From the NCBI GenBank assembly GCA_964019415.1, contig CAXHTE010000068.1, positions 1 through 64,000 on the forward strand: a DNA stretch of 64,000 nucleotides, given 5' to 3'. Below are positions 9,440 through 48,312 of the stretch, in pieces. The notes below the pieces were generated by a model. It had not been told where the DNA came from and ran no database searches. It saw nothing but the letters and a program-made list of their open reading frames with translations. Position 1 is the stretch's first letter. The number at the start of each line of letters is the position of its first letter. The translations under genes were made by a program, and so were the position numbers. Source of the stretch: Ianthella basta. Lineage: Eukaryota > Porifera > Demospongiae > Verongiida > Ianthellidae.

Positions 9440-10684
9440 TTACTTGTTATACTGAGATGATGGAAGAAAATCAATTGTTCGCTGGTTGCCGTTTCTACTG
9501 CTGTCATAAGCAGAAACGACGATCTCAGGACCGGAGAATTCCATGCTGACTGTTACACAGCAATCTTCAGCTGATGCTCTAGTTAGCAGGTGATCCATGT
9601 CGAAGTAAACCTCGCCAATCTTGACACAGTCACGGTCTGTGACATATTTTGGTTCCTGTGCATCTGTGGCATATATGGAAATGGTATCGGTTTGGCCAAG
9701 GTCCACAGGGGAGTACTTCTTATGGTATGATTCAGTAGGGTCCAGTTTCTGTCCCTTGGTCACAATCACCGAGAAGATTTCACGGCAGTAGTAATCCTTA
9801 TGCTCCTCTGACCGGATCTTCTTTTTTGGATCATCATCACCTTCCCTAAAACGATGGCGGCATTCAATGCCGTAAGTGGCAGGGCTGGTCCTGTATGCAA
9901 TGGCTTTCAGTGGACCAAATCGCACTGCTCCTTTGATGATAGCAGAGCCTGGGTCATTAGGTATCACTACTGCTAGTTCAGAAAACTCTGCCTCCAGTTA
10001 CTTATGCAGTATCTTGCATTTGGCAAAACCACCGACAACAAACAGGGCATCCACTTCGTGTTTGTCACGCAGTGACTTGATTTGCTCAACTGTGCTGGAG
10101 ATTGTGGGCTCGTACCATTTCAAGCATTGTTCTGATGACACACGGAGGATGTGGGACTTTGGTTTGATGTACGCTTGAGGGCTCTTTTCCTTGTCAATGT
10201 CAAGGCAACTCAAAATCTGTTTTGATTTATTGGGAAAATGAACAAACATGGCTCCTGGTAATTCAATTAGCATTTCATGGTTCCCCTCATACTCCAGTTT
10301 GCTTGCTTCAAAGTTAGCCATTATCGCATTCCATACTGGTGGATTATCTGTCATCTCTGAGAAAACGTTTGGGTAGCCAGTGACATCCAGATTACAAAGG
10401 AAGTCCACAAACTTCCTGTCAATGGCTGCAGCACCATCAGCTGAACCTATGTATACCTCAATCTCGTGCACTAATTCCTTTCCCGGCTCTTCCAGGCCTA
10501 CAATCTCGTGTACCGCTACATCAATTGTACCTCCACCGATATCAATTACAATGTAACGCTTGACATTGGCTGCACTGCCCATAACCAAGTCAGCTTTTTG
10601 AAGACTCCGAACATGCAAGGCGGCTGACTCAGGCTCCAAGGCAATGGCTAGTTGATGTGGAGTGCAGAATGAGTAAATTTTTGC
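9440..10684 (-). CDS. Exon 12: HSPA12-like ATPase second half and C-terminus, with in-frame TAA
   Basis: Acceptor TTCAG before GCAAAA at 10684; open in one frame for 415 codons except for TAA at 9998-10000 (minus strand). Contains [15 protein letters not shown], the phosphate-2 loop [25 protein letters not shown] and the adenosine-side motif [16 protein letters not shown]. After the TAA the same frame continues with [16 protein letters not shown] and about 175 further residues to a TAA at 9440-9442. The paralogue at 44262 has Gln (CAA) at the aligned position, so a single C-to-T change explains the stop. It may be a true null, a polymorphism or an assembly error. Confidence 0.88.
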
Positions 10685-12685
10685 CTGAATAAGGAGCAGA
10701 TAGTTACTCATAAAGTCCATTCCATAGTATGATGCACACATGATGTAAATCACTAAGTCACAGCAGCTGTATCTTGAATGTCAAATTGCTACTTGTAAAA
10801 TACCCTTCAGAATTGAGCTAAGATATTACATTGCTGGTCTGTGTATGGTGTCTTTGTGTATGAGTGGGTGCATGTATGCATGTGCATAGACGTGTGTTGG
10901 CAAATGAGTATACCCTCATTTGTGTTATGTAATAGTTAAATGCTGACCAAGAGGTGTCTCTGAGATTTAGAGCACGAGACACGAGGGCGCGAAGCGCCTG
11001 AGTGCCGAGTGGTCTAAATCTTCAGAGACACCGATTGGTCAGCATTTAAGTGTTATAGATCCCAACGATTGGGCAAGGAGTGGCAGCGAATCAGTTTAAC
11101 TACTCGTACTTGCGTCATCACGCGTCTTCCGGAAGTAGTTAGCAATTTCTGACAATGGCCGAGAAAATGTCGTTTGGTTATTGGGTTTGTCATCTCGCAG
11201 CAGACGTTCCTAAAGGTCGGCAGTGGATGCGGCGCGTAAGCTAAACGTAAGCTTACTCACTGTCAGCCCCGTCAGCCACAGCGTTTCCCAGAGCGGTGTC
11301 CTAAGCCTGTTCCCAGCTCGTAACCAGTTCCTTTCTCGGCTCTGGTTCGTAGGCCGCTGCATTCCGGATTGTTGCATTACCCTGTTTGTCGACGAAACAA
11401 GTAATCCGAGCGAACTGTGCATCGTATGTTGTGGAGTTAGCTACTATTGTTATCGCAGCTGCAGTTTCTCTGCTATAGACCACGGGCCCAAGCCACGCCT
11501 ATGCTCTAAATCGCTATTTAGAGCATAGGCGCGAACGCCGCGCGTGCCACGCCCATGCTCTAAATTGGCATTTAGAGCATAGCGCGAACGACGCGCGTGC
11601 CACGCCCATGCTCTAAATCGGCATTTAGAGCATAGGCGCGAATGCCGCGCGTCGAATTAGAACACGGCTAGACGAAATAGACCACGGCGCGAAACAACAC
11701 CCAGGGTGTCTACGACGTTTAGAAACATCGTTTAGACGCACGTTACCATGGCAACGGGATCTATACATGCTTAAGCTAGTGCACGTACATCACGTGTGTT
11801 TGTGTATGCACAATCTTATAATGCACATTAGCTCTTTAGCAATGCTAGATGAGTTTCCTCATGGCAAAATGAGAGGTTGCAAATGATGAAAGACGGGATT
11901 TCTTGTCAAGTTTAAAGGAGTTTCTTTTGTAGCCATAATAAGGAGCAGAGATGAATGATGCCATCCATTTAACTTCTATATGGATTCACCAACAGTTCAA
12001 ACATTGTACCTAATCTGCCCTTGTAGTAGGTGTGAAATCGTCCTGTACCTTCTCCTTCCACAAATGCACACTCATCAAAGCCTTCAAAAGAGTTCCAGGA
12101 AGCAACACATTGAATGAATCCTTCTCCAGTGGCAGAGTTCATGAGTATAGAACCATAATGGATGATTCACCTGCAAAGTGGCACTGGAGAGAGCCTTTAC
12201 GTACGTTTTTAACAAATGTGGCTTGTATGGAGCATGCGTATTCCAACACAGACAAAGCTCCAGGAACCACTAACTGGCATGAATCATCTTAGCCAATTTC
12301 ATACAGATTACTCTCCGTCTACAACAATTCATCTTTGCCAAAACTTTCAAAAAGGCAATTTCAAGGAGTGAAAGGTGCCCTTTGAGGACAGACATTTTAT
12401 CCCTGGAATTGCATTATTTTGGGTTATCTATCAGTATGCATGGGTTTGCAAGACCCATGAGATAAGAGAGGTGGGGTACAGCCTTGAGTGACAGCATCCG
12501 AGTATCTGTCCTGGGCTCCTGGCCATAGAATTCTCCAACTGTGCTTGGTAATAGGTGGCTAGCATAACTTGCACAACCAGTGCCAAACAGTGGTAAGCGT
12601 ACTAGCACCTAAGAGAGTATTACACGAGTTACTATAATCTCCTCAGTGGTTTGTGGTTCACAAGTATGACTAGACTTGTAGCCAA

Positions 12686-12727
<42 letters not shown>

Positions 12728-12737
12728 AATACACTCA

Positions 12738-12770
<33 letters not shown>

Positions 12771-12816
12771 CATCAACACACACACACACAAACACACACA
12801 GACACACACACACACA

Positions 12817-12850
<34 letters not shown>

Positions 12851-15800
12851 CACCTGCCAGAAGTGATGCCAGACACAACCTGAAGCTGTTCTGGCTTCAT
12901 ATACCGTATAGCGGGAAAATTTCACGAGGTTTAATGCTCGCAATTTGACCAAATTCGCGAAATTTTCCTTCGCGAATTTTCTCTATCCATCATTATAATT
13001 ATATGCAAACGTCATAATAAGATGGCCGCCGCGTGGTGCAGAAGTGGATTTAGCCATTAAGTGCTATTTCACTGTTCCATGCTCAAAAATTCCTTCAACT
13101 AAGTAGTTTGCCTGCCTAGGAGTTGTTTTGGAGGTTGGAAATTGCGAAATTATAACTGCGAAATGTTTGGTTTTGAACAAAATCGCGAAATTTTCTTCCA
13201 TGAAATTTTCCTGCTATACGGTATAGTGGAATAGCCAAGATGCTGGAAGGCTTCCATTGCAGTGTAGAACACTCTGGTCTCTGCCATTCGTGGACATGAG
13301 TATAATAAATATTTCACACCTTTCCTGCAATCTGATTGGGCATGCAGCTATTGCTGTGGGGTGTACAAGTCAGTGTATTAGACTTAACCTGACCCTTCCA
13401 TGTGTGCAGGGGTCATGTACATCTGATTAATGCACTGCCAATATCATTTTTGTAATTGTGTGCAGGACATTAGCTTTAAACTTCACGTATCATCATGGAG
13501 CTAGGCTGATTTTTTGTTTGCTGCCAATGCAGATCGAATGTTCAAGCACCACCTGTATGCTGTCCTTGGCGGGGAGTTTCAGCAAAGGCTTGCAAAATAA
13601 GGTTTTCTGGCACTTTGCCATATGCACATATGGGACAACATCTTTGTCTTATGAAGGAAAGTGAGCTAGATTACAAATTTGCAGTGAATTTGGTTGTTAT
13701 AAACTCTTCCTGGGGAGATGATGTGACGGCTTTTTAGCTATCATTTTAGCATGAAGTAGGTGGCCATAGGTGACATAAACTATATGGCGGAAAGTGTCTT
13801 CTTGAGAGAAAGAAAGCAGCTAGATGGCAAAAATGGGCCTCAAGTTATCTTGGTTGGCGATTGCACAAGGAACCAATGGCGTCATCACAACTTTCTACAG
13901 GGCAATCTGCAGTGTGAATAGGCCGAAAGTGAAGCCAAACCACCAGACTATCCAAGAAATGAAGATGTTCAGGGATGCTGAGAGCTCTCAAAAGCAGTCA
14001 TCAACTTTCAGCACTCGAAGACCAGCACTCAACCGATGATCATCAGAAGTTAGCTCAAGGGAAGAACCATGTAGGAGCCAGCTCAAAGGAACAACCAGGA
14101 GGCAGCTCAAGAGAACAACCAGGAATCAGCTCAAAAGAAGAACCAGGAGTCAGCTCAAGGGAACAACCAGGAGCCAGCTCAAGGGGAGTCGGCTCAAAGG
14201 AACAGTCAGGAGTCGGCTCAAGGGAACAACCAGGAATCAGCTCAAGAGAAGAACCAGGAATCAGCTTAAGAGAAGAACCTGGAGTCGCTTAAAAGAAGAA
14301 CCAGGAGTCAGCTGCATGCTACTCTACATATAACTGCAACTTACAACCTCATAACCTTCACTCAGTAGCCATTACTTCATAGCTATCATTGAAATTGCTT
14401 TGTATCAGAAGCGCCGGAGCAGAGCAGCTAGAAATGGGTTACAATAGAGTGGTAAATACTGAGGTGGTGAACAACAAACAAGTAATGCACGCAAAGGGTA
14501 TTCAGCTAGTACCAACAATATTCATTACATGTTGTTTGATGCTGGCATACTAGCAATACAGTCTCATCAGATTATAACAATTGAAAGAAAAGCAGGATTT
14601 CGAACTGAGTTGTGGCATTCCTATTAATTCCATACATTCAAATACTTCTATCTTAGGCCCAGGAGACTTTGAGTGTGTACACTCACCCAGTCATGCAACC
14701 ATCATGAAGCATGCTAGTGTTAGTTTTGCATACCTCTTGCGCTGCATGCCTCATGACATCCCTTGCTGATGCCCTCCACATGGCAGGCACTGTTAGCACC
14801 CATTTGATGTCTCCCTCAGAGTAGGCCCATCCATGTAATTCATACATTCTATCTAGAAAGAGATCCTTGATATGCAGTAGGATATCACCAAACACTTTCA
14901 CAGCTGGAAGAGTGACAGAGGTTGAGCTGCCTCCCTTGATGCTGCCAGTCAACTGAACATCTTTGACAAAATCCTGATTATGTCAATGGTGAAAAGTAAC
15001 TATTATTTGATACTAAAAGTGTGTGAGCACATAACTAACTACTGCAGGTACGTAGCAATGTGAGGCTGTATTATTCAAAACACACAATAACGGAATAGCA
15101 AAACTACATTAGAATGGTGGATAATTCACAATCGAGACACATGATATACATGTAAGACAGCAGTTAAGGAGACAGATAAAGTAAGTGCAGGCCCCTTTGC
15201 TTCAGTCTGTAGTCTATACTCTCCAGAGCTGGGGGGGAAGGGGGGGGGGGGCAAAGAATCCCTACGTACTTTGCACCAAAATATGATAATCTATATATAT
15301 ATATTTCAGTAGAGCTGAAAAAGTTTGTTTGCAAACTCCTCCCACAGTTTGCTCGTGATCGATGTGAAACGCAGGATTATTACGGGGTGCCACATGGAGA
15401 TCAGTATCAGTATCAGTATCAAATCATTATTATGCTGGCAACTCCACTTAGTCAAATGGCTACTTTCCAGGGAGCCCAGTGAAGTGGCAAATAGTACAAT
15501 GTATTGAAACAGGAGTAAGGATGAGTTAATGAAGACACAGGACAAGGAGAATGAATAGTTTTAAGGTGACATTGAAATAATAATACAATTAGAACTGGAC
15601 ATTCGGAGTAAGGTGAATTGGAGTATGGCTATAATCAGACGTCACGTTCGTGACGTCTATTTAGGAGTGTGCATGGTTCTGCCTGCAAAAAGCTCTGCAC
15701 CTGCGAAGAACACTGCATATTTTCTCTTCATTATGGAAAAAGACGCCATGTTTTTCGAGCGTTTACAGACTGCGTTTACAGGATTCTGGTTACTTAGTGA

Positions 15801-18800
15801 TTTAAAAAGACGCACCATGCTTAAAAGGGAGAGTGCTTGTGCTCTGCCCTGCAGCAGAGCTGCAGATACACTATCTATGGCACTATACTGATGTTATTCA
15901 GCTACAATATGAGACTAAAATGCAGCAACATGGTAAACCTATTCCTTCTGCAAGCATGATGCTGCTATTTTGCACAAAGTCAACAATAGCTGACTGTCAG
16001 TCAACAACAGTTTGCATGTCATTGTACTATGCACATTACAACTCCTTTCTAAAATTTCTACTCGTTACTACCATGTAATCACCTTCTTTCCACCTTTGTA
16101 TACACTGCTCTTCGCTTCTTTTCTATCAATCATGTAGTTGTGTCTATGTTGTATCTATTGTCAGTGCATGCATGCATGATTCTGCCTTTACTGTGTGATT
16201 CTCGCTATCTGTCCACATCACACACAGCATCGCCTGGAATGTGCATGGCTGCGGCCTACAAACTGGCATACCCACACCATCATAAGCCATACTGGTGTCA
16301 CCTGGCCATTGTGGAACAACCGTCGTCGAGCAGCTGTTGTGGAGTAATCGTTGTGGGGGCGCCTGAGTAGTTTCCTGCTAGTGAGCTATAAAGCACTGAT
16401 AGTGTAGAGGTCACTCCAGCATACAAACAATTATTGAATGACTTCTTTCTTCAAGTTCATCCCATCAAGCTTACTTAATTGTTTACTTCAATTCAGAGAA
16501 ACCTTTCTGTTCAAAACAATCCAGGTCAGTCAATATACCGTATGGCTGGAAATTTTGGCGGGAATTTATTTTGGCGGATTGCTGAAATTTCTGTATTTGG
16601 CGGAATATACTTTGGCGGTTTGGCAAAGCCTGTGCCATAATGATATTCATAGCAAAATGGCTAACCCGGACGAACAGAGCTAGATTGCTGATGACTTGCT
16701 GAAGAGTACACGCGTTGTTGTTTGACCATAATTGGATTATTTTGTTCCAATCCTCAGCTTTTCCCACGAATGCTACAATGTACAAAGGCTTTCAAGCTTC
16801 CTTTTGGCAGATCTGCTGACGCTCGCCTGCAGCCTGACCTTGCACACAATCGTACTGCTCCAACACAGAAACAGAGAACAGGCTCTCAAAATCTGCTGCA
16901 CTAAGTTACCAAAATGATCTCAATGATCTTGACAGCGATTGCATATAAGACGCTGTTCAAATTGCCTTCGGCCTCCTCGTGCTCTACTTCCACTTCCGAT
17001 GTGCAAAAATCTTTGGAAACACAATGTCCTCGCGCTGCTGTCAGTTGTGAACTCCATGCTGACGATTAATCTATAGGCCTGGCGCAACAAGGCTTGTTAA
17101 GCGCAAAACCAGATGATTGCACAAATTTTGGCGGAAGAAATATTGGCGAATTGCTCTCAAAACGCCAATCCGCCAAGATTTCCGGCCATACGGTACCTCT
17201 TTGCCTATATCACTTCATCTGCAATATGAAGCTTTTCTTGTTTGTGTGCTATCGTGAGCAGTCCACCATCTATAGTTGTACTGTTTGCTTTATTCCATGT
17301 TTCATACAGTACAGTCTCCTGCTAGCAGTACAGTTAGACACCTTACCTTTTTATCATGTAACGCCATCTTGAAATTTTTAAACAGTGCCCAGTTCTTTTC
17401 TCCTCTTGTGTGCATCTTTATTGCTTTATGTCCGAAAGCAGCGAACTCCCAATCAGCACCAGATGGTTTGTAGAGCACAGTAGTTGGAACTTGATACTCG
17501 TCTTTCCATAGCTGGTCTGTGAACTGGTGAACCACTGTTTTTCCAAGTTCCGTTCGGCTCCATGCCACTTTGGTGTAAGTTGTTCCAATATCCACAGCCA
17601 CAATAAATTCGCATTCAGCTGGGATAGCTTCAAAAGCTTCTGTAGGATAATTTACCCTGTCAAGGCAGTAGGGGTCTGCAGGACACAGTATATAAGGGAG
17701 CCAACTGCAGTACACCTTCCCCTCCCCTCTTCTCTTCCCTCCCTCACACTAACCCTCCCCTCACCAGAAGGCACTAAGAGGAGGAGGTCTCTGACAGAGT
17801 CCCTCAGCCTTGGCTGTTTGTTCTTAAGTGCAAAGTCACCAATCTTCAGCAATAACTGGGTGTGCTCCTGTGTCATGGAGATAATCTGGGAGAGCGAGAC
17901 ACAAGGACATGTTCAGCCGGGCACTCTCTTATATATAGGTTAGACTGAGATCCGAGGTGCCTATGGTATATAGAACACCGTGGGAAACCGATTACTATAG
18001 AGGCCTGTGTGCAAAGCGCAAGGCCTCTATATCAATTTCTAAGGAGTTCTATATCTCATAGATACCTTGGATCTAGGTCTAAGGTGTTTAGAATTTGATA
18101 GCAACCAGCGTCAATACGGGTAAGGACCGTGCTGACCAGTACTACCAAGAAATGATGACAAAAAGATAGCTGAGTAGTCAAATGGCAGCGTAAACTGTGT
18201 GGCAACGACCCTGCAAAACCCAGCTGCTGCGAAATACCTTGGAACAGTGCTAAAATTAATTTCGCTCCAAGCTTGTCACAGCTACATTGTCAAAATTTTG
18301 CCTTAAAGCGCTAGAAGCTACCAGAGGTGGTATAAGTTGAATCAGAGGTGGTATAAGCAATTTAGAACACTGCCATTGGACCAATCAGATTACAGCACTT
18401 TGTTGCATCATAATCTAAGCTTGGTTGTAAGACCTTGTGTGTACAAAGAACTTACTATGACATTAGCCCCCCACTCACCACTGATGGTAGTCTCTCCTCA
18501 GCCTCAGTGCTGGCTCCCTCAGAGTTGGAGGAGCTGCTATGGGATGACCCATCACCCATGTTAGTTTCCATGAAGACCACCTTTATCTCTACTACCTGCA
18601 GTGGACAACAAGTGCACACTACACTAACCCACAAGTCAACACAGAGCCACCAAGAAGGCATAAGTAAGGTGGGGGGTAAATGAAGCACATACGACTGAAC
18701 AATAAGACTACAAGCAGCCAATGACAGCCAAGGACCAGCCCCACACAATGCAGAGAACATCTCCTTGACTTTATCCCACCCTCACAGCCGTGTCTTTCTG

Positions 18801-21800
18801 GATCACTGTGGACACATGCTTGTGGTCCTCTTCGGTGGGGATAATACTGCCTTCAAAGAAGATCTTCATGTTACTGGATGGAGCCAGTTTCAATCTATTG
18901 AGGGAGACGAGAGGAAAGGGGAAAGTTTGAGAGGGAAGGATTGTATTCTGAACACAGAATGTTATAATAGATATGTAGAAAGCAACAAGCTTGTCAGTTT
19001 TCTTGTGTAGTCAGCCGCTTTCCTCTATTGTGCAATACCACAGAGGAATATATAGGTATAACTCAACTGTGAACATTAAATGTCCATGGGAACATTGCCG
19101 AACAGTGCGAATAATTAGGCCTTTGATTTAGTAGACAAGTCATTGGTGTAAAGAGCACATGCAGATGAAGTCATTCAGGACTGAGATGATCATAAAAGCA
19201 GTATTCGGTGATTTGTCATGAATGGATTTTATTGGGCAAGCAATACACAAAGCAGCAAGTTATTGGCACTCTCTGCAAACCATGCTATTTTCTTCAAACA
19301 CCACACTGTTACAGCAAAGATCTTTGGGCTGCTGGTGATAATTGCATAGTGAAGAAACTTGCTGTCTCAATCAGTCTCTGATACTTCCTCCTGTCAGCCT
19401 ATCATCAGCATTTCACTTCATAAAGTCATAATAGCCACACAGACTACGTATCATGCAAGGTATCAGGTGAGGAGCCACCTACATGTCTGTATATATAAAC
19501 TGCATGGGCTCAAATAGAAGCTGTGGGTCAGAGCAGTGATTCTTTAATAGAGGCCAGGTTTGAAATGACACCTCATCTAGAATCCACAGCCCAGGCCTCC
19601 ATTTGGGCAAATACAGTCATTGTCTGGGTACAGGAGACTATCTCTACTAAGGCAAGCCCCTCCCAATAAACCACGCACTGTCTTTTGATTCTTCTTCGCA
19701 CAGAAGCCATTGTTTCCTTGGTGTGGGAGGGTACCTCAAAAACGTTTTCACACCCGCAGCTGTACTGGATCACAAAAGGCCGACCCCAAGTGGACCTAGG
19801 GGGTGGGGTCACAGTGTAGACATCATACGGCGAACATCATCATACCTTAACTCGCTGTAATGGATGTTGTACAATCATGCCACAACAGTGCATTCTACAC
19901 TGTCATGCAACATGATGTCAGTTGATGTCACAAACAACATACTTTCTATGATGAGAGGAACCCTTCTCATCAAAGTAGTACTTGTCCATCTCTGCAGTGT
20001 ATCCCTTGAGCAAACGTAGACATCGTGTCAGCTCCACCACGTTCTGCTGGAAGACATCCACATTCTCTGTTGCCTCCTTCGCAATCTCCTGGTTGGCACG
20101 AAGGCCCTCCCAGACACAACGCATCTTCTTAAAACAGTTGTGCAAGAATTCATCCTTGAAAGAAAACACATTGAGGGGAGGATGACCAGCCAGTAGGGAG
20201 GTTGCAACAATGTGGTCACTAATCAAAGTAAGACTTGAGGGGGGTAGACAGTCTGCCACAGGCACGTTACTTCTGGTACTATATTCTATGTGATCTGCCT
20301 ATCAGATATCTTGTAAACAGGCAACATCGGTCATCAAAATGCATTCTCCCTCCTCCCCTCTCCACGAACTTCATCTCCCTCCTAACCTTCCCCCTCTACT
20401 CCTCTCTCCACAACTTCCTTCTCCCCTTCGAAGACAAACATACTATTATAATAACTAATAAAGGGAGTAGAAAGTCACCTTAACATGCAGTTCTTCTAAT
20501 TTACATGATGTGCCTCAGCACATCATGCTAATTAGAAAGAAGATTCACCTTCTTTGATAGAGAATCCTTCAGCTTTTGTTTTGCTTCTTCTAGGTCTGAT
20601 TGTACTATTCTGAGTGTTTTTTGTGTCTCATTCAGCTCTTGTTTGGTTCTGCTGAGCTCTGTTGTCCCTATAAATTCTTGTTGCATTGTTTGGCCCTCCT
20701 GCAGTGCCCTGTCATTCTTTTGTGGTGTCTTTTCTACACTCTAAGAAGCAGTAAAGATACATTTATGGCACAAATTGCAATAGATTCATACATACCACAA
20801 ACATAAAGTAAATTAATCTACTTATACCATGCAACTACGTATATGTCACCACCATCGCTGCAGTGATATCCATACACATGAACCGATTCCTAACAACAGC
20901 AATGATACGCTGGAAAACAAATTATGTTATAGATGAGTAATTATGCCATATACTGTACATACAACATGCTACTACAAACACAGTATACATAGACACGTAT
21001 AAGGGCATAATGAATAAAAATTACAATATATATTGCATACATACATAAAAATTGCAAATCAGTAACTAACATTTCCTCCAATTAGCTCTTTCTTCAGGTT
21101 GTCTTGATGCTGCACACCAATTTCAGAATCCTCCATTGCTTTAAACAGTGGTTCCCATGTAGGATCACTATCAGTCCATTTTCTTAATCCCATCTGAACT
21201 GCTTCAACTTCACTATTAAAGTTCTTATTAAAGCATTCTTCAATCTTCTCATCTTCAAGAAGGTGCTCAAGCAGTGCTCTGCCCTTGCCTGATGCATTCT
21301 TACTCACATGCTTTCGCAAAAGTGGAAGCCAATTTCTAGAACCTAAAATGGCATGTTGGCAGAATCACTGCATTACTGACATGACCATTGACAGTAAGTT
21401 ACTCTATACCTCACTCTACCGTGAGCTATATCAGCTCACGGTGAGCTCTAGAGCTATATCACATGTACACTACATTAGAGCAAGACTTTGTGTCAAATAT
21501 TACATACACGTAATGAGATGGTGAACAATAAATCGGGGTAAGTGGCCAAGACAAAGGTTGAGATCAGCAAATCTTCATGATCTGACAATGTTTCTCAGTG
21601 AGCCAGAGTGTCAGAAAGTATTGCAGTAAACATCGCCAAACGGTAAGTACAAGTCTACAACTGGACATGCTGTCTTCTTAAATGATAAAAGTGAGTGTCT
21701 AGGAAGATCCATCTTGTAGAACTACACGGAAATGCTAGCTTAATCACAATTCAATCAGACATTTCGGCAGCCACAACAGTGAAGTCAGTTGTAGGCTGTT

Positions 21801-24800
21801 GAAATGTCTGATTGAATTGTGATTAGGCTAGCATTTCTACGAGATTCTACATAATGCTGTTTTCTTGCTTATGTACACACAGTTGCCTTCTTCATGGCTC
21901 AGAACTAGCATACCATTTTCCATCTCAAGTTCTGTTGCCATTCTACATAGGTCCACTTCCATCTACTGCCCAAGATGTTCAGTTATCACCTACACTAAAT
22001 ACATACACCCACCTTTGGGCACAGTGCACATGCATGTGAGACTATGGCACTGCCTCCATACCTGGCCACCTAGTAGCTGCCTCCCTTATGTATTCATTGG
22101 CATAACCAAACTTAAAATACAAATTCTTCAGCACCTACACAAGATTGTTAGCTACAATATGGTGCATAAAAAAGGTAATAATAATTCTGTTTGTTGCTTA
22201 ATGGTACCATATGGCGAGAAAGTTTGGCAGGGAATTTATTTTGGTGGATTGGTGGTTTGAGAGCAATCTGCCAATATTTCATCCGCCAAAATTTGTCAGC
22301 ATTAGTGTGTAATCATATAGTTTCTCATATAAACTAGACTTGTAGCTGGATGCACCGGGCCTATAGCTTAATCGTCGGCATGGAGTTCACAACCGACAGC
22401 TGCATATGAGGACATCACGTTTCCAAGGGTTGTGGACACCCGAGGTAGGGAAAGAGCTGTCTAGATTTGTCAGTGTGAGGAAGAATTGGAGGAAATTTTG
22501 GAAGAAAGTGAAGGAGAGGGAAAGTACAAGTAGGCTGCATGAGAACTGGAATTGAGGGAAAGGATGGCAAAGTGCTGACTGATATTGTTGAGGTGAAGAA
22601 GAGGTGAATGGAACATTTCAGTGAGTTGCTAGAAGGTGATAGGGGAGCGGTAAATATGGTGTTGGAAGAAAGGGAGATTGAGGAAAGGCTATTGGAGGGG
22701 ATTATGGAAGAGGAGATCAGGAGAGCTATAGTAGACTGAGAGGGGCAAAGCTGCTGGAGTGCGTGGTATACAGGGAGAAATGTTGAAGGCCGGAAGTGAC
22801 ACAGTAGGTTGCACATAATCTTCAATATGGTGTGGGAGGAAGGAAAAGCCCCTGAGGACTAGCAGAAGGCAGTGATAGTTGCAATACATAAGAAAGGAAG
22901 CAAGAAGTTGTGCAAGAATCAGTGTCTATCTATGTAGGGATGGCCATGATTGTTTGTATGCTGTAATACAAACAAAAAGTAGTGCTACTACTGAACAGAA
23001 GCAAGAACTGACAAAAGGAACTGCCAGCAAGGAAGGAAGGCTGTACAGCTTACATAGCTAATTTTACTTCCAAGTGCCAGGGTGCCATCAAGTAGAAAAC
23101 GTCGGTGCCTTTTTCCGTGCTTCGTCGTCTTCTTCTCTGTCAGCTGTAACTCACAAACAATAAGGAGTAAAAGAATAATTTATCCACAATTCTGTGACGA
23201 TTTTGGGAGGCAAGTGCCTTTTGCAGGTTAGAGGGCTCTGCGAGCCAGTCCACAAATGGAGGTTAACCAGCCTTCGTGAGACATTGCTAGGCACAAGAAG
23301 CCATTTTACAATGACATATCACATGTATGACGGTTGGTCGCTCTTCTTTTACATTTTGGGCCAATAGAGGATATGCAATAGTGACACAATACCGGAAGGT
23401 CAAAAGGTCGATGGTGAACAGATGTACTGTTGTCCATATGTAAACATAGGGAAATTGCATTTGGGTCTACTTATTCCACCTGTGCCGCATGTGTTGTGCC
23501 ATCAAAGCAGGTTTAGAGCCGCTCAAACAGTAAGAGGCCATGCCTAGAATATGTTCGAGGCAAGAGGTAGATGCAAAGGGGCGAATACGCCATGCTGTTT
23601 AGAATTGGAGGTGTATACTCACACTTCACATCGTTGGAAATCAACCCAAGAGCGTCAGCAAGGCTTCTGGTAGCACTGTGTGGAGGCCTTCGGGTCCCAG
23701 ACCTTCACCTGTAACTTGAATGGTGACGGATAATCAGGGGCGGTATCAAGCGAATCGCAACATGTACCGACGCTATTCAAGTGGGCACAGCAGCAAGAAC
23801 TCTCTCTGCAGGAAAGGGAAAGGCAGTGGTGCCTTCTGGATGTGTCCAAACTACTTGCTGATGATGATACGTGTGCCTTCAATTGCTGCGAAACCGGTTT
23901 CCTAATGTACAGAGTATTGGCTCATTTGTTGTGATCAGCAGGCGATCAGATACAAACAGCTTGCACAGGGGAGGATGTTCATGCTTGGTAGACTGACAGT
24001 TAGTATACCACTACCCCAAAAAGTGGCTTCAAAGTACATGTCCATACGTACATTAGAGTACCTCCATACAGTAGACCCCTGTGAGTCCTCACGAATCCAT
24101 CAAACGATGGAAAACCCATTCCTCGGTGACTTGGGACATCTTAAGCCACTGTTGGGAACACCCTCAAAGGGTAGCAATGTGCTACGCCTCAGTTTTGAAG
24201 TGCAGCAAGATCAAACTTCCAGTGAGTGTTCGGCTTCAACCTCGAGAAAGTGTGCGCCATTCTTCCCAATTCGCTATTGCAGTCACTGACTACGAGCACC
24301 TTCTATTTAACAACAATTTAATCCTCCCAGGGCTTAGAGAAATGGACAAATCTCCATTGACGTTGTCAAAGCACTGCAGGTGCCCATTTTCCTATGTTTA
24401 CATATAGCAATGTAGTGTACCATTCACCATTGAACGTCACTTCCGCAAAGTGGGCGGGGCAATGCATATCCTTTATAGCCCCACAATGCGTCAGATGAGT
24501 GTTCGCAAGTGTATATGGCACAAGCTTCGGCCGCCGTTAGTCAGCACGCCATTTAGGACATCTGCGGTGGTTGTGCCAGTGGGCGCCATTTGAATTACTA
24601 CGAGGCAGCTTCCGGTGGATGTTTCCGAGTTCGTGTGGAGCCCAGGTTCTAGCTGCCACTTCAGTTCTGCTCCAGAATAAATACATGAGGGCCATATACC
24701 TGCATTGCTGTCCTATGGTTGTGGCAATTTATCATATCTGAGCTTATGCTCCATAAAAAGTGCAGAAACAAGAAAGAATAGAAATTTTCTACAAAACCCA

Positions 24801-27800
24801 CTAAAGATATAGGGCTGGCATGAAAAGTACAGAAACAAGGAAAGGCTACTACACAGTGGAGCATTCACCATTCATTGTCCCTACATGCAAGAGTGCTGCA
24901 CCATATGGTGCAACACTCTTGCATGTAGGGACAATGGTGAGTGCTCCACTGTGTAGTAGCCTTTCCTTGTTTCTGTACTTTTTATGCCAGCCCTACATCT
25001 TTAGTGGTTTTGTAGAAAATGATTACTCTTTCTTGGTATAGAGGGATCAGTCTGCTCAGTATCCCAGGCAAAGTCTTTGCAAAGATTCTGGATGCCAGAA
25101 TCTTTGTACATTGAAGAATTCGTGGACAAAGTGAAGGACTGGAACGAAAATACAGCCACATTTCATCACCATTGCAATTTAGCTCTTACCCATTCTGGAT
25201 TAATCATTTTGCTATGAATATCATTATGGCATAAGGCTTGGCCAACGCCAAAGTAAATTCTGCCAAATGCAATAATTTCATCAATCCACTAAAATAAATT
25301 CTCACAATAAGTGCTCCTACAAGAGATACTCTACAAGCCAACAGACCATATGAATCTATTTACAGCTAACATTCCACCATAGCTGGGAATTAATGCACGA
25401 TTTCATTGAAATAGCCATGCAGTGTACAGTGTACCAGCAAGATGACCAGCCCTTTGGGTGGATCCATCCATTTTATGCTAAGGCATTCAAACAGGCTTTG
25501 GGAGTACTAACCAGTCACCTTCCGGGACAACATATCCTCTTTCTCCGGCACCTTATCTGTGCAGACATAATTATAATGAGAATGCACTGATGAATTAGCT
25601 GCCATAGGGTGCGAACATCATACTAATAGGTTGTTTGTAAACCACCTAGACTCCCTTCCTATATCTCTGAATATAGTGCCAGTAATGTACAGTAGCTATT
25701 GCATCCACAATTATTTTTCATAAGAGTCATCTCACCTCCGGTGGCATACTGGTGTGAGTGGCCTCCAGATGAATATGGATTTCCTTCAGAGTGTGGATTG
25801 GTGCTAGAGTCAGGATTGCATTGCTCCATATGATAATGGGAAGGTTGAGTTGAGCTTTGAAACTACATAACAAGCAAGGATAGAATGAAGTTAAGTGATT
25901 GTATGAACAGCACAAAAAGGAAAACAAGTTGCTATCAAAAGTGTACAGCTGTAACCCTACAGCAGTGATTTCCTTTAGCCTCCTCCACCATAGTACAGGG
26001 AGGTGCTTGCTTTGAAAGTTTGGGATGGTTGAGGCCCGTTGAGTGACTAGTTGTCCATGTGTCACAGGCATGCCAAACGTCCCTGAGGGCTCATGTTTAT
26101 CTGCATGCTCAGAGTATGTCTACGGTGACTTGCAACACTGTATGGGATAAGGCTAGAACTGCTAGACTCTTCAACGTGTGCAAACCTCTCGTTGTTGTGC
26201 ACGGTACTCACGCAGAATCATGTACCTTGTTTTTGGTTAGACTTTGGCTAATTTCCACACTTCATATGCCGTGGCCCAACGTATATAAATTCCATACTTT
26301 TGCACCATCTTGGAATGTTCATTTCACCCATCTCTGTATTCACAAAATTGATCACACAGGTGCCGACGGATATTACGTATTAGGTGTGAAAATCCTTATG
26401 CCTTGCATGCACGTGGTCCAATGTAGAGTGACTTGCATAGTTGTGTGGGCAGATTAAAGTACGTAACTTTGAATACTTTACTTTGCAAAATCCTACAGTG
26501 TGCTTTATGGCTGTTCCTAAATTTCCACAGGAAAGCTAGGGTGCCATGTCAATGCTAGCAAGAACTGTTAACACTGACACTTTTCTCACACTTTGAAATG
26601 CAGAGCCTGCCCGGGATATTCCAAAGGTTGCAAATTCAAAAGATCGAAGCTGGCTAACATGCCATGCCACATTGTGCATGCAGCCATTTAGTCAGTACTG
26701 AAGGAAGAATAGGCAGACAATTACAGTCAAACTGAGCACCAGGTCCTACATTATTGTAAAAGACATATCCCCGTTACTATGGCAACAGGCCCTGATAATT
26801 TTCATATACATTAAGAGCCCAGGGCTGATGACTTGACCTGTGCGTATATATATATATATACTAGCGGACAGACCTGCCCTTCGGGTAGGTCTCTTTGCGT
26901 GCTCGGCGTATGCCAGCTGGTTGGACACAGGCTGGTAATGCCATTGCTACTCAGGCCCCAGCTAGTAATGCACTGGCTGGTCATGCATGCTCTGGCAAAG
27001 GATAGTCCAGGCTGGCCTGGTGACGTCAGTGTGACTGACCTACCATGTGTTCATGCAATTTACATGGAAGATCACCGTAGACAAACAACGGATAGTTGTA
27101 AGAAGCTGATGGTTTCTGTGTGTGAGACAACCCCCCTTTCCTTTTTTCCGCTTCGGCATTGCGCTAGCTTGGGTGGAATCCTCGCACCTGCGCGCGAATG
27201 CCTAGGATACGGCATACTTTCTTCCAAGATCCAAGATGGCCGACGGTCGGTTCATCCTGGGCTTTAGCTGCGCGCTCCTCGGCATCAGCTTATTTTAGCA
27301 CGTCTACCACCTTATATTGATGTGAGGTACAGCGTACGACGGCTGGGAACGTTTGGGCGCTTTTCGTCGATGTTCGCGGGAGGAGTTCGCGAACAACGGT
27401 TGGGGTTCTTTTGTATTGGCAGCATAGGAGCGTGCGCGGAAAACCGTATATTTTCTCCGTAAATCCAAGATGGCGGACGGTTGTTTGGAGGTTTTTTCGC
27501 CGCGCACTCCTCGGCAGGGGCTTCTTCGCGCACATCGCCCCCCTTAGATCGAGACCGGGTGTGGCGTCCGTAATCTGGGAAAGTTTGGTGTTCATGCGCC
27601 GTTGCTCGCGGGAGGAGTTCGCAAACAACCATTCTGCTCAACTCCTTCTTTATATATATAGATGAGGGGTCGCACAGGTCAAGGGTAAAATACCGCACAG
27701 GTTAAACCACAAAAATGTCATCAAAATGTCATGAATTTCATTATACACAACAAAATCCACCAGAAGTAAAATAACACAAGGCTACAGTACAAACATTGCT

Positions 27801-30214
27801 TTAGTATAAGTTTGCTATAGCAGTTACTAGAAGTGGCAGAATTTCTCAGCTATGCTGTGAAAAGTCCTCCAGAAGTTGGTCAAACTCTGCCTGTGTAATT
27901 TCTGGAGGACTTTCCATATATACATAGCATAGCCAAGACTTTTCTGCTCGGCTAATAGAAATCGTCACTGGCCTGCCTGGCTTTAACAGTGAACAGAGTC
28001 AACCACTTGGCCAGATGGCTAAGGTCTGCTCGTTCGAGCAAATCTCCTGGGCAGTATTCTTCGCCCGAGAGCTGTCATGCCTGCTTCCAGTCAGCAAAAA
28101 CCTTAATGGCCCCAGCACTGTCGATTTCTAGATATTCGGCTGAACGTACTTCTGCTGTGCCGCTTCCACATCTTTCTTAGAAACGAACTGGAAGCAGGTG
28201 GAATTTCCAATATTGCCAAGAGTTAGCTAAGCGTTTCTTTGCCTTTCAGAGGCTCGTTCTCCCTCTCTGCACTGGCTATGGCATTTAGAGCACTTGTCAA
28301 TGTTGGGACAAGAACAGTCAACAAAATCGTTACGACACAGGCAAAAGCAACCGGGATTGATGGAGCTCATCCTTGCAGCAGCTGGCTATGGTCTCCTGCC
28401 AAAAGAGAAGGTGCTTAAAGGAGCTGCGTGACCCACAGGAAATGAAATATAACAGGTATAGTCCTATTAGTGTGCTATATGATGCATATGCATCATATCG
28501 CACACTAAGAGGACTATAATTATTACATATTGCTGATACGTAGCTACATTGGCAATAGGCCCAGAAACGTCCATTTGTGGACTCGGTTCTGGAGCTAATT
28601 AACCTACAAAGGAATGCAGCCAACCAAAAACAATTCAGCATGTGGTACTGTAATGGTTTTCTCCTGTTCACTATGGAACATGGTACAGTCTCTTTGGACA
28701 GGTTGGAGCTAGGGACGGTCTAGGAAGTAGCATAGCCCTAAAATAGCTGCAAAATGGCCAAACACAACAAAATCATATTGACGTTGTGGGGCATCTGTAA
28801 CCAAGCACACTAGGACTGTGAATGATGACGGCTCTACCTGGCACGTGGCATGATGATGATAGTCTTGCGTGGCCCAGACCCCTTTCCTACCTCCTGCCTT
28901 TATATTGCACAAGAGGCAGGTTCTCATCAAGTGCTTGTTCACAGGAGGATATTATAAGATAGGAGGAATTAGCTAAGTGAGTGACGTACCACGAGGGAAG
29001 CAGAAATACTATAGTGTACAATACCCATCAGGTCCTGCTCCTAAAAGTGCCACTAGCTCACACCTCCATTATCAAAACCTGCGGGTTTTAAATTATTACA
29101 GTAGAGAAGTTTAGACTGCCTTGGAATAAGCGTGAGAGGAACCAGCCCTGCATAGGAAGCTCCAATATATAGACCCTTTCCTCTGCACTCTTATGCAATA
29201 GAGGAAAGGGTAGCCACGCGAGACTAGAATAATGACTGAAAGGGTTACGAATAAGGGTCGAACAAATACTCTACATTAAGTTCGACTATTCGTTGCTTCC
29301 AATGAACGAATATTCAAATCTTCGTTCCACCGGAAGTGATTACTAAATATGGCCGTCTTCTGTGGAGCGATTACCAGAAAAAAATGGGAGGAGAAAGTCG
29401 AATGAAGAGCAGAACAGGCGAACTTGACCTGACAGAAAGCATTTTTATACAGTCTCTGCGTAATCCATAAAACATTGGAGGTGTTTCGTTCCATAGATAT
29501 CGACTGATTCATGAGCGAAACGAGTTTTGTTGGCGGCCATTTTTATGACCTCATTAAGCGTCATCAATCCAAACGAATAAAATTATCCTTCGAATATTAG
29601 GCTATATACGGAACGAATAGTCGATTATTCGGTTATTCGTTCGACCCCTAGTTACGTACATGCAGGCCATTCGATAATACACAAATGGAAGCAGTACTGC
29701 ACTTCATTTGCATGGGTTGGTTCATTTTGCAGGTTTTGGGGGTGAATAAGTTGGTCACACACTAGGAATGCTTGAAAACGCACCATTTACAATACTGCCT
29801 TTACGTACACATATAGGGCAAACAAGGACTCCCATAGGCAAAATGGCGCGCATATGGGCCCTGCATATGCGCATGTATGCCTTGCAATCCAAGCCTAGAA
29901 GGATAAATAGTTAAGTTCATGCGGTGGGTCGAGATTCGTACCATTCTTGAACTTCTCTGATCACGAGGCACAACTCTGAACGTTTGTACTGGAGTAGCCA
30001 CAAACCCAGGAGGAAGATCCACCCACTTTTTAAAGTCCCCATCAAACGTCTGAAGCACAATATCAGAAGTCTCCTTTTCAGCTAGGTCTTCGAACATAGA
30101 AATCGCCAGCTTCGCGATGGCCAGTAGGTCTGTATCAGAGCTGGGAGTTGGCAGCCAGCCCACTCGATTACTGTCGTTGTACGTCAGCAGCACTTTCCTG
30201 GGGTCCTCGGCCAT
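9440..30214 (-). CDS. 12-exon gene: PB1-like / death-fold-like / coiled-coil / HSPA12-type HSP70 fusion (one in-frame stop)
   Basis: Gene model from the 12 exons listed separately. Every junction has a plausible GT donor and AG acceptor, and incoming and outgoing phases match throughout, giving 3279 nt (1093 codons). Conceptual order: beta-grasp/PB1-like N-terminus (1-91), polar Ser/His/Tyr linker (92-134), death-fold-like helices (about 134-224), coiled coil (225-288), helical segment (289-359), short linkers including a Ser-rich one (410-448), a helical exon (449-488), and an HSP70-type ATPase of the HSPA12 branch (about 489-1092). The ATPase motifs are [26 protein letters not shown] and [16 protein letters not shown]12 proteins are atypical HSP70s without a canonical substrate-binding domain. 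An in-frame TAA at 9998-10000 would end the protein at codon 907. Expression is not shown by sequence. Weakest points are exon 1 (distance), exon 2 and the 42-nt exon 6. Confidence 0.7.
9998..10000 (-). other. In-frame stop codon inside exon 12
   Basis: TAA on the minus strand after ...CKILHK. The downstream frame stays open and family-like for 185 codons. The aligned codon in the paralogous exon is CAA. Confidence 0.85.
10936..11049. repeat. Palindromic foldback element in intron 11
   Basis: Outer arms TTAAATGCTGACCAA / TTGGTCAGCATTTAA. Inner arms include GGTGTCTCTGAGATTTAGA against the complementary TCTAAATCTTCAGAGACACC, around a GC-rich loop (GGGCGCGAAGCGCC). A closely similar element occupies the same intron of the partial paralogue at 45110-45224. 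Confidence 0.8.
11491..11656. repeat. Tandem palindromic 60-65 bp repeats, GC-rich
   Basis: About three units of 'catgctctaaat / atttagagcat' arms alternating with 'ggcgcgaacgccgcgcgtg' type loops. Each unit can fold back on itself. No coding potential is evident. Confidence 0.75.
11974..12300 (-). other. Unrecognised coding-like stretch in intron 11
   Basis: The minus strand reads 57 codons from an ATG near 12144 ([20 protein letters not shown]...) and, just upstream in another frame, [18 protein letters not shown] and [13 protein letters not shown]. The composition looks protein-like, but I do not recognise the family and there is a frame change between the two. It could be a decayed exon of an unrelated gene. 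Confidence 0.2.
12687..12849. repeat. (CA)n microsatellite
   Basis: About 160 bp of CA dinucleotides with minor interruptions. The long frames across it on both strands are artefacts. Confidence 0.95.
12901..13224. mobile_element. MITE with ATACCGTATAGCGGGAAAAT-type inverted ends
   Basis: Ends ACCGTATAGCGGGAAAATTTC (minus its last base, 12904 on) and its imperfect reverse complement ending at 13224; TA at each end suggests a TA target site as in Tc1/mariner. The 324-bp interior is rich in 'cgcgaaattttc' words and has no open frame. Confidence 0.75.
13225..14050. other. Intron 11 sequence, nothing recognised
   Basis: No repeat or coding match recognised between the MITE and the minisatellite. 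Confidence 0.4.
14056..14305. repeat. 24-bp minisatellite
   Basis: About ten units of the type 'ggagtcagctcaagggaacaacca', translating to [12 protein letters not shown] octapeptides on the plus strand. It lies inside an intron of a minus-strand gene, so the 105-codon plus frame is probably incidental. Confidence 0.85.
14734..14973 (-). CDS. Exon 11: HSPA12-like ATPase subdomain
   Basis: 240 nt, phase 0 in and out. Acceptor AATCAG before GATTTT; donor GAG/GTATGC. Contains [20 protein letters not shown] and [19 protein letters not shown], the conserved 'DIrWViTVPAiW' region of HSPA12 proteins. The paralogous exon at 45602-45841 has exactly the same length. Confidence 0.9.
14974..16535. other. 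Intron 10 sequence with short simple repeats
   Basis: A poly-G run sits at about 15231-15251, a short (TCAGTA)n near 15400-15420 and the 20-bp palindrome at 15638-15657. Otherwise nothing recognised. Confidence 0.4.
15638..15657. repeat. 20-bp palindrome GACGTCACGTTCGTGACGTC
   Basis: Near-perfect inverted repeat containing two TGACGTC half-sites. The same word with one change and about 13 shared flanking bases (CTATTTAGGA) occurs inverted at 41752-41771, so it belongs to a dispersed repeat. Confidence 0.65.
16536..17195. mobile_element. MITE with TACCGTATGGCTGGAAATTT-type inverted ends
   Basis: Left end TACCGTATGGCTGGAAATTT, right end the near complement (TTTCCGGCCATACGGTA at 17179-17195). 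About 660 bp, with internal 'ggcgggaatttattttggcgg' words. Fragments of the same family lie at 22202-22310 and 25195-25308. Confidence 0.75.
17347..17675 (-). CDS. Exon 10: N-terminus of the HSPA12-like ATPase
   Basis: 329 nt; acceptor CTGCAG before ACCCCTAC (incoming phase 1), donor AAG/GTAAGG (phase 0 out). Carries the phosphate-1 loop [16 protein letters not shown], followed by [20 protein letters not shown] and [17 protein letters not shown], the standard start of HSPA12-type ATPase domains. The paralogous exon is 47796-48103. Confidence 0.92.
17765..17885 (-). CDS. Exon 9: helical linker before the ATPase
   Basis: 121 nt, phase 0 in, phase 1 out (donor TCTG/GTGAGG). Encodes [20 protein letters not shown] and [14 protein letters not shown]. 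The paralogous exon 48192-48312 is also 121 nt and clearly similar, which supports both exon boundaries and membership in the same gene as the ATPase. Confidence 0.85.
17936..18412 (+). repeat. Dispersed repeat, copy 1 (partner at 58738-59225)
   Basis: Starts with a foldback (TCCGAGGTGCCTATGG... / ...CATAGATACCTTGGA around GCGCAAGGCCTCTATA) and then runs through CAGCGTCAATACGGGTAAGG to two 'cagaggtggtataag' units. Copy 2 shares the whole layout. A 79-codon frame open in copy 2 is interrupted by TAG here. Confidence 0.8.
18479..18595 (-). CDS. Exon 8: Ser/Glu-rich linker
   Basis: 117 nt, phase 0 both ends (acceptor CTGCAG, donor GTG/GTGAGT). Encodes [20 protein letters not shown] followed by a Ser-rich and Glu-rich tail. 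The partial paralogue has a matching Ser-rich exon at about 48430-48550. Confidence 0.7.
18786..18894 (-). CDS. Exon 7: short linker exon
   Basis: 109 nt, incoming phase 2 and outgoing phase 0. Encodes [20 protein letters not shown] and [16 protein letters not shown]. Acceptor CTCAATAG, donor GCT/GTGAGG. No family recognised. Confidence 0.6.
19754..19795 (-). CDS. Exon 6: candidate 42-nt microexon
   Basis: Acceptor CCCCTAG; donor GG/GTGTGA gives 42 nt in phase with exons 5 and 7 ([14 protein letters not shown]). An alternative donor GAG/GTACCC further down breaks the phase. This is the least certain exon; the open frame continues to 19573. Confidence 0.45.
19943..20154 (-). CDS. Exon 5: helical segment
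   Basis: 212 nt; acceptor TTTCTTTCAAG before GATGAA (phase 0), donor AGAAA/GTATGT (phase 2). Encodes [38 protein letters not shown] and [14 protein letters not shown], strongly alpha-helical. No named domain recognised. Confidence 0.65.
20340..20430. repeat. Pyrimidine-rich tract (purine-rich on minus)
   Basis: Long CT-rich run on the plus strand, within intron 4 of the minus-strand gene. Confidence 0.6.
20549..20740 (-). CDS. Exon 4: coiled coil
   Basis: 192 nt, phase 0 both sides (acceptor CTTAG before AGTGTAG, donor AAG/GTGAAT). Encodes [20 protein letters not shown] and a heptad-like stretch [37 protein letters not shown]. Probably an oligomerisation segment. It is absent as a single open reading frame from an ATG, so it was found only by splice-aware reading. 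Confidence 0.7.
21071..21342 (-). CDS. Exon 3: death-fold-like domain
   Basis: 272 nt; acceptor TTTTAG (incoming phase 1), donor AAT/GTTAGT (phase 0). Encodes [20 protein letters not shown] ... [40 protein letters not shown]. The second half matches the usual end of death domains: amphipathic helix, 'W..sdPTW..Ll.Am', then the final helix 'LkkeL'. Death-fold domains mediate homotypic adaptor contacts in apoptosis and immunity. Assignment is by pattern only; a profile search is needed to separate Death from DED/CARD. Confidence 0.65.
21730..21836. repeat. Inverted repeat, possible PLE end remnant
   Basis: Arms AAATGCTAGCTTAATCACAA and CAATCAGACATTTCGGCAGC against their imperfect complements ending at 21836. 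The words GCTGCC-GAAATGTCTGAT resemble the PLE repeat at 49454-49475 (GCTGCC-GAAACGTCTGAT). Confidence 0.55.
22202..22310. repeat. Fragment of the TACCGTATGG-type MITE
   Basis: GGTACCATATGGCGAGAAAG and 'ggaatttattttggtggattgg' match the left end of the MITE at 16536; 'caatctgccaatatttcatccgccaaaattt' matches its right end, with the middle deleted. Confidence 0.6.
22433..22925 (+). pseudogene. Non-LTR retrotransposon RT fragment (upstream part)
   Basis: Plus-strand readings in shifting frames: [55 protein letters not shown] and [18 protein letters not shown]. This is the conserved lead-in to RT of metazoan non-LTR elements, normally followed by 'NYRGISLLS'. That next motif is found at 25038 instead, so about 2.1 kb of other repeats appear to separate the two. 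Many stops; non-functional. Confidence 0.7.
23340..24490. mobile_element. Element with long (about 120 bp) inverted ends
   Basis: Left arm at about 23340-23465 (with TATGTAAACATAGGGAAA) and right arm at about 24385-24485 (with TTTCCTATGTTTACATATA) are imperfect reverse complements. The roughly 0.9-kb interior has no recognisable protein. Probably a non-autonomous foldback-type element inside intron 2. Confidence 0.55.
24768..25037. mobile_element. Palindromic MITE (family A), full copy
   Basis: Near-perfect 270-bp palindrome centred at about 24903. Arms include TTTTCTACAAAACC..., GGCTACTACACAGTGGAGCA and CATTGTCCCTACATGCAAGA. Related copies: 46564-46686 (half) and 47393-47655. Confidence 0.85.
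25038..25110 (+). pseudogene. Non-LTR RT fragment (continuation)
   Basis: Reads [20 protein letters not shown], the RT motif that should directly follow KKLCKN at 22925. It abuts the end of the palindromic MITE, consistent with nested insertion into one RT. Confidence 0.7.
25195..25308 (-). repeat. Fragment of the TACCGTATGG-type MITE, inverted
   Basis: The reverse complement matches 16550-16665, including 'gccataatgatattcatagcaaaatg'. Confidence 0.65.
25736..25862 (-). CDS. Exon 2: polar linker exon (candidate)
   Basis: 127 nt; acceptor TTATGTAG before TTTCAA (phase 0), donor GGAG/GTGAGA (phase 1). Both phases match exon 1 and exon 3. Encodes [20 protein letters not shown] and [20 protein letters not shown], a low-complexity Ser/His/Tyr/Asn linker. 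The support is phase agreement and composition. Confidence 0.5.
25863..26837. other. Intron 1 sequence, nothing recognised
   Basis: No convincing coding or repeat signal. Confidence 0.35.
26838..27665. repeat. Dispersed repeat R1, long copy with internal duplication
   Basis: Bounded by (TA)n-CTAG at 26848-26862 and TATATATATAGATGA at 27652-27664. Contains two related units, each running through CCAAGATGGC(C/G)GACGGT..., 'gcgcgctcctcggc' and 'cgcgggaggagttcgc'. Similar copies lie at 46010-46563 and 47270-47395. The minus-strand frames across it are not conserved between copies. Confidence 0.7.
27666..29243. other. Intron 1 sequence with one hairpin
   Basis: Only the hairpin at 28457-28518 stands out. 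Confidence 0.35.
28457..28518. repeat. Near-perfect 62-bp hairpin
   Basis: TATAGTCCTATTAGTGTGCT... folds onto ...CGCACACTAAGAGGACTATA around TGATGCATATGCATCA. The arms differ at a few bases. Confidence 0.8.
29252..29650. mobile_element. hAT-type MITE with 8-bp target duplication
   Basis: Ends TAAGGGTCGAAC and GTTCGACCCCTA; flanks GTTACGAA (29244-29251) and GTTACGTA (29651-29658) form an 8-bp duplication with one mismatch, the size hAT transposases make. The interior is rich in 'cgaatattcg' words. The same terminal motif occurs at 54290-54362. Confidence 0.75.
29942..30214 (-). CDS. Exon 1: PB1/ubiquitin-like N-terminus (candidate)
   Basis: 273 nt from ATG 30214 to a donor AATG/GTACGA (phase 0). 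[40 protein letters not shown] and [20 protein letters not shown] read as strand-strand-helix-strand, resembling PB1 or another beta-grasp fold. It is the only good first exon upstream of exon 2, and the phase fits. Distance to exon 2 is 4.1 kb, filled with repeats. The domain could instead start an independent short gene. Confidence 0.5.
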
Positions 30215-48191: not shown

Positions 48192-48312
48192 CAGAAGGCA
48201 CAAAGAGAAAGAGGTCTCTGACAGAGTCCCTCAGCCTGGGCAGTTTGTTCTTACGAGCAAAGTCACCAACCTCCAGCAAGAACTGGGTGTATTCCTGAGT
48301 CACAGTGATGCT
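48192..48312 (-). CDS. HSPA12-like paralogue, exon equivalent to exon 9
   Basis: 121 nt, donor TCTG/GTGAGG; encodes SITVTQEYTQFLLEVGDFAR and [20 protein letters not shown]. Same length and phases as 17765-17885. Confidence 0.85.

Follow-up and report, generated by a model that had tools for sequence, protein, structure and literature searches.

Whether a single gene can carry a death fold, a coiled coil and an HSP70-family ATPase on one chain, and whether its product could work as a signalling scaffold, is the question raised by the locus at 30214-9440 (minus strand) of the window, i.e. the whole stretch of 64,000 nucleotides analysed here. This window corresponds to bases 1-64000 of contig C68 (87,737 bp), in an assembly of 209 Mb and 96 contigs. 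The evidence set out below indicates that the locus is probably a chimera, as predicted from its sequence, of death-fold, USP9X-like and HSPA12 families, which would have been fused, duplicated and given a different front, and which now bears a stop.

Exon chain and reading frame of the locus

Fourteen minus-strand exons with GT/AG borders and compatible phases were rebuilt from the sequence between an ATG at 30214 and a stop at 9440. The chain comprises 1155 codons, the final stop included, and its frame is open and in phase over the 14 exons except at one codon, a TAA at 10000-9998 (codon 969 of 1155) inside exon 14, which deprives the HSPA12 part of its 185 C-terminal residues. The first-pass annotation had described 12 minus-strand exons with compatible sites and phases: the strand, the GT...AG borders and the phases were recovered, but the count is 14 and an exon at 19795-19679 had been missed. 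Its length of 1093 codons was superseded and the TAA had gone unnoticed. The order of domains, given as PB1, death fold, coil and HSP70, was revised to death fold, coil, USP9X piece and HSPA12; between the coil and the HSP70 there is no linker, this stretch being made of five exons (7-11) that form a USP9X-like fragment. Two candidate exons, 12608-12482 and 12170-12010, were dropped, the latter because stops come with it, and exon 13 joins exon 14 directly.

The front of the chain

Exon 1 (29942-30214) encodes a domain of 91 residues for which 11 further matches were found in the genome at E≤1, with 32-43% identity, the last two being weak. It had been read as a PB1-like start. This assignment was abandoned, as exon 1 matched none of the Pfam families and a profile built from six family members returned two PDB rows, neither of them significant (best E 0.42, a C-type lectin). 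Five copies of the exon-1 type, on contigs C6, C21, C16, C5 and C20, are 92-99.7% identical in DNA alignments whose blocks reach 3 kb. Such an identity indicates a recent dispersal, in which the domain was perhaps carried by a mobile element. Relatives of exon 5 were absent from the 11 exon-1 loci other than that of the window (about 3 kb each). Exon 1 is followed by a Ser/His-rich linker (exon 2, 25736-25862), a short linker of 38 nt (exon 3, 25519-25556) and the 24 residues of exon 4 (22062-22134), which fails to align with the other members of the exon-5 family.

Exon 5 (21071-21342) belongs to a large family, with at least 150 matches in the genome, itself included, all at E below 1e-12; this number is a lower bound because 150 of the 385 candidates were scored. 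When a profile of 12 members was compared with the PDB, FADD came first (E 0.0091), and FADD or CRADD accounted for 12 of the 18 rows at E≤10, including the best 11. The same profile matched 23 of 129 proteins at E≤0.001, among which P0114 (E 3.9e-7) and P0067 (E 4.9e-7), and in these two proteins the matched stretch is a Pfam Death domain (31.2 and 32.0 bits, respectively, for a cut-off of 22.6). Against this, the peptide of exons 4-5 gave no match with Pfam Death (PF00531), which was detected in only one of the 12 family members (E 0.041), and the single-sequence model of exon 5 displays six helices with a poor mean pLDDT of 52.8. The profile results support the assignment of exon 5 as a death fold. 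The death-fold-like domain of the first-pass annotation is consequently retained on the basis of its kinship with FADD/CRADD and with Pfam-certified Death relatives, exon 5 itself staying under the PF00531 cut-off.

Another region of the genome, at C9:638158, contains an open frame of 1431 residues in which a death fold of the exon-5 type occurs with ankyrin repeats that exceed the Pfam cut-offs and with a Pro-rich tandem repeat; Roc is matched weakly there (17.7 bits for a cut-off of 27). In a further frame beyond it, Death is matched below threshold (19.3 bits for a cut-off of 22.6). Of 7992 proteins scored with the Roc-like part of the C9 frame as a query, 707 were matched at E≤0.001, and nearly all of the 120 listed are nameless.

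A USP9X-like fragment in exons 7-11

The middle of the chain is formed by exon 7 (19943-20154), exon 8 (19679-19795, 117 nt, phase-preserving), exon 9 (18786-18894), the Ser-rich exon 10 (18479-18595) and exon 11 (17765-17885). Exons 7 and 9-11, joined into one query without exon 8, matched human USP9X (7yxx_A) with an E-value of 5.8e-8. The strong part of this match covers residues 948-1068 (i-E 2.6e-5), exon 9 starting at about residue 948 and exon 11 ending at about 1068. Exon 7 alone is only weakly similar to the human protein (832-890, i-E 90) and owes its USP9X identity to exons of contig C22, with which it is 62-64% identical. On this contig, exons 7 to 11 are found in order both at 5.87 Mb (minus) and at 5.89 Mb (plus), and exon 11 of the window is 85-90% identical to these copies. 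Upstream in the plus copy, one exon matches 7yxx 716-825 (E 3.8e-29) and also PF25010, and downstream a UCH-like stretch reaches 20.7 bits for a cut-off of 23.9; in the minus copy, of which a few kb were read, the DNA preceding exon 7 is nearly identical. With the C22 genes as decisive evidence, exons 7-11 are identified as a USP9X-like fragment equivalent to residues ~832-1068. Seven other USP9X-like peptides from C22 and C68, covering ~499-825 (and nothing before 499), regions beyond 1068 and the catalytic box, did not match the window at E≤0.1. The C22 catalytic-box peptide stood for the UCH catalytic domain in this search.

The USP9X-like gene at C22 ~5.88-5.90 Mb is preceded by a protein-kinase frame (PF00069) and a coil exon. 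Its catalytic-box-like stretch reads GATGYMN, within a frame that has no Pfam match. Active USPs possess a cysteine in the catalytic box at this place, and for this reason the C22 gene may encode an inactive deubiquitinase.

The HSPA12 part and its join to the USP9X-like exons

Exons 12 (17347-17675), 13 (14734-14973) and 14 (9440-10684) were assigned to HSPA12 by sequence comparison. What we take to be the phosphate-1 motif (exon 12) and the phosphate-2 and adenosine motifs (exon 14) of the HSPA12 ATP site are all in place. The HSPA12 part is 25-29% identical to four relatives, one of which is a mollusc protein named heat shock 70 kDa protein 12A, and the peptide of exons 11-14 up to the stop remained under the cut-off of PF00012 (HSP70; 12.8 bits vs 20.6). 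By this kinship and by the three motifs, the HSPA12-type HSP70 ATPase announced by the first-pass annotation is indeed present, cut by the in-frame TAA. A complete nucleotide-binding domain in one frame is absent, the TAA preceding the conserved GA..FG stretch. Since, according to the alignment, a stretch conserved in this fold lies behind the stop, the HSPA12 part as read is probably inert as an ATPase.

The nearest HSPA12 sequence outside C68 is a copy on C22, with an identity of 63% to the last exon over 227 residues. Its first exon has its own ATG (by eye), and exon 12 of the window has no in-frame ATG ahead of the ATP motif. Intron 11 was compared with the introns that follow the same exon in the two C22 USP9X-like copies, and scores of 72 and 53 were obtained, which none of 500 shuffles reached in either case. 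This alignment extends to ~17683, and from ~17648 exon 12 resembles the first coding exon of the C22 HSPA12 gene (score 80, with 100 shuffles reaching 32 at most). Since the intron likeness ends and the HSPA12 exon likeness begins there, the breakpoint between the USP9X-like intron and the HSPA12 first coding exon was placed in the zone 17683-17648. Four HSPA12 matches at C22:5.91-6.00 Mb (plus), two of them with internal stops, follow the USP9X-like gene. As both lie in this order on the same strand, the fusion would be explained if the DNA between two neighbours had been deleted; we infer this step from the arrangement of the parents, the deletion itself being unobserved.

A second USP9X-HSPA12 chimera, copy B, stands in the window at 48483-44262 (minus); the exon chain described above is named copy A hereafter. 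Copy B, which is interrupted by repeats, comprises the tail of exon 10 (48483-48427), exon 11 (48192-48312), a first HSPA12 exon with its own in-frame ATG (47796-48103), a second one (45602-45841) and a third one with an early stop (44262-45032), behind which no match for the C-terminal part was detected. A blastn block of 607 columns (68%, E 1.5e-58) links A and B across exon 11, the intron and exon 12; many other blocks between them correspond to dispersed repeats and were set aside when gene homology was assessed. The introns at the join, taken alone, score 63 (0 of 500 shuffles as high). The copy B intron is weakly similar to the C22 USP9X introns (a score reached by 17 and 50 of 500 shuffles, respectively), and its share in the fusion event consequently rests on its likeness to A. 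Copy B retains more of USP9X, since C68:64-72 kb encodes peptides that match 7yxx 499-555 (E 1.7e-14) and PF25010, and a relative of exon 7 occurs at C68 65.1 kb.

Transposase-like frames of several kinds of DNA transposon (by eye) occupy 50470-54131 and 60390-61490 of the window and separate exon 11 of copy B from its upstream USP9X-like exons, which lie beyond the window. An open frame of 984 residues at 1312-4266 (plus) resembles a Ty3/gypsy-type polyprotein (by eye), and a long Pro/His-rich tandem-repeat frame covers 62005-63240 (minus).

The presence of two copies bears on the possibility of a misassembly, in which parts of duplicated loci would have been put together in the 87.7-kb contig. 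C68 is short when compared with the other contigs (mostly 6-16 Mb) and has dispersed repeats in common with other loci, as would be expected of such an artefact. We nevertheless consider it very improbable: the USP9X/HSPA12 join occurs twice on C68, in copies diverged to 68% over the block, and the exons of the window differ by at least 10% at the protein level from every other copy found (10-26% for exon 11, 36% or more for exon 7 and 21% or more for the last exon), which argues that they are not misplaced pieces of C22.

The proposed join between the death fold and the USP9X-like exons

The passage from the death fold and coil to the USP9X part would lie in or near intron 6 (20155-20548), because the later part of this intron resembles the sequence found before exon 7 in the USP9X-like copies. 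The score was 54 with copy B (shuffle maximum 37) and 59 with one C22 copy (43), the other C22 intron being borderline (50 vs 49); the likeness to C22 sits in a purine-rich tract. Exon 6 (20549-20740) is coiled-coil-like by eye, in agreement with the coil noted earlier. Together with its flanks it resembles the coil exons upstream of USP9X-like exons (68 vs 47 for copy B and 61 vs 50 for C22), and its peptide resembles the C68 and C22 coil peptides (p 0.006 and 0.004, respectively, with 500 shuffles). As coils are alike by composition, this likeness places exon 6 only weakly with the USP9X part.

The same region could also consist of two units, namely a complete death-fold gene in exons 1-6 (331 residues) and, behind it, an untranscribed USP9X-HSPA12 relic. 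This is a reasonable possibility, though we do not expect it to be the case. In its favour, read-through past exon 6 stops after six residues, and the phases of exons 6 and 7 would agree by chance one time in three. Moreover, a protein search of the genome with exon 6 returned no sequence other than exon 6 itself (E≤0.1), by which the idea of a widespread coil was not borne out. The two units are harder to reconcile with the donor after exon 6, which fits, and with the weak resemblance of exon 6 and its flanks to the coil exons that precede USP9X-like exons on C68 and C22. A second death-fold/USP9X join was not seen, and C68 64-75.5 kb contains no convincing relative of exon 5, a single match of 19 residues (E 0.07) not being counted. 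The putative death-fold-to-USP9X join of the favoured chimera is argued from phase and intron likeness only, and a shorter death-fold protein from exons 1-6 is possible.

The internal stop and the pace of change

The consequences of the stop were analysed by counting the changes in the last HSPA12 exon. With C10 as outgroup, copy A has accumulated 47 changes and C22 37 over 408 sites (chi-square 1.19), i.e. 22 vs 20 before the stop and 25 vs 17 behind it (184 sites, chi-square 1.52). With C22 as outgroup, 12 changes were assigned to A and 13 to B over 224 sites. The dN/dS ratio of this exon between A and C22 is 0.33 before the stop and 0.54 behind it, and reaches 0.55 between A and B. For exons 7-11 it is 0.51-0.53, with 0.21-0.25 for exon 11 alone and 5.7 for exon 8, a value obtained on only 18 codons. 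Ratios mostly between 0.3 and 0.55 fit both a weakly kept gene and the mean of a kept and a free copy. These sequence comparisons suggest that, until recently, the frame was maintained, and that it may since have been released from constraint.

For the locus to encode a functional signalling scaffold in a single gene, as originally suggested, the stop would have to be an assembly or base error. Its 14 exons are open and in phase but for that one codon, the HSPA12 exon changes no faster than its free-standing relative even behind the stop, and at least one other death fold of the exon-5 family is joined to ankyrin repeats in this genome. As to the stop, a base error or a rare allele may account for it. 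We nonetheless hold the scaffold to be unlikely in view of the stop as read, of the likewise truncated copy B, of the dN/dS of exons 7-11 and of the greater number of changes in exons 9-11 of A than of C22 (11 vs 5 over 107 sites, with human USP9X as outgroup).

The first-pass annotation had gone further and suggested an ATP-regulated, NLR-like scaffold. For this copy the suggestion is unsupported: its HSPA12 ATPase is cut by the stop, and neither NACHT nor LRR was matched in Pfam by the five peptides scanned (exons 1, 4-7, 9-13 and 14 up to the stop, i.e. all but exons 2, 3 and 8). As to the remark that no protein with this order was known, the combination is absent from the nine relatives returned by the HSPA12 part among 7995 candidates scored; these proteins measure 616-900 residues, cover 38-52% of the query and do not have Death among their listed Pfam domains. 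The death-fold part used as a protein query yielded no match among 67 candidates scored. Likewise, no description of a death-fold/USP9X/HSPA12 architecture was found in the titles and abstract openings that the literature searches returned. The parts are known and the combination is new to us, fusion after duplication being a known process.

Discussion

The chimera that we favour can be written as a series of events. A USP9X-like gene was joined, inside an intron, to the first coding exon of an HSPA12 gene, presumably by loss of the DNA between tandem neighbours such as the pair still standing on C22. The joined piece was duplicated and exists twice on C68. In copy A, the USP9X-like front would then have been replaced by the front of a death-fold gene, with a break in or near intron 6; the likeness of this intron accounts for part of that step. 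That the fusion may once have provided a frame that was translated is suggested by two features of the HSPA12 part: it lacks a start codon ahead of the ATP motif, and its rate of change does not exceed that of the free-standing relative. Finally, in the assembly, the reading frame is cut by the stop at codon 969, behind which lie a conserved motif of the ATPase and the C-terminal part. If a protein is made, it would contain the death fold, the coil and the USP9X piece, followed by a truncated and probably inactive HSPA12 part. More probably, copy A represents a pseudogene of recent origin, or else a null allele.

Should intact alleles exist, they might place a death fold and a coil on a USP9X ARM/UBL piece and an HSPA12 ATPase, and so form an ATP-regulated assembly platform, an outcome that we judge quite unlikely. 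If true, it would be a new kind of signalling protein, obtained by exon shuffling between expanded families. The favoured reading describes a traceable chimeric gene in the making, of which the parental arrangement, the intron breakpoint, a sister copy and the disabling stop are found in one genome. It suggests that genomes rich in death folds can try out new signalling architectures through duplication, and it calls for caution, as a tidy domain order at a single locus can conceal a relic.

Compared with known systems, the exon chain recalls the NLR receptors in having a death-fold front and an ATP-binding domain further back, whereas its ATPase, which is truncated, belongs to the actin/HSP70 kind, and NACHT and LRR were not found in the scanned exons. 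Exons 7-11 follow the residue order ~832-1068 of USP9X/FAF-X, a protein of ARM repeats with a ubiquitin-like insert, of which only this piece was found in the window. With the death domains of FADD/CRADD and of ankyrin/Roc proteins, the likeness is that of the exon-5 family profile; in contrast to these adaptor, ankyrin and Roc domains, exon 5 has no Pfam Death match and precedes USP9X and HSPA12 pieces. Lastly, exons 12-14 have the three ATP-site motifs in common with HSPA12 proteins, from which the window copy differs by the lack of its own start codon, by a stop before a conserved motif and by its position behind USP9X-like exons.
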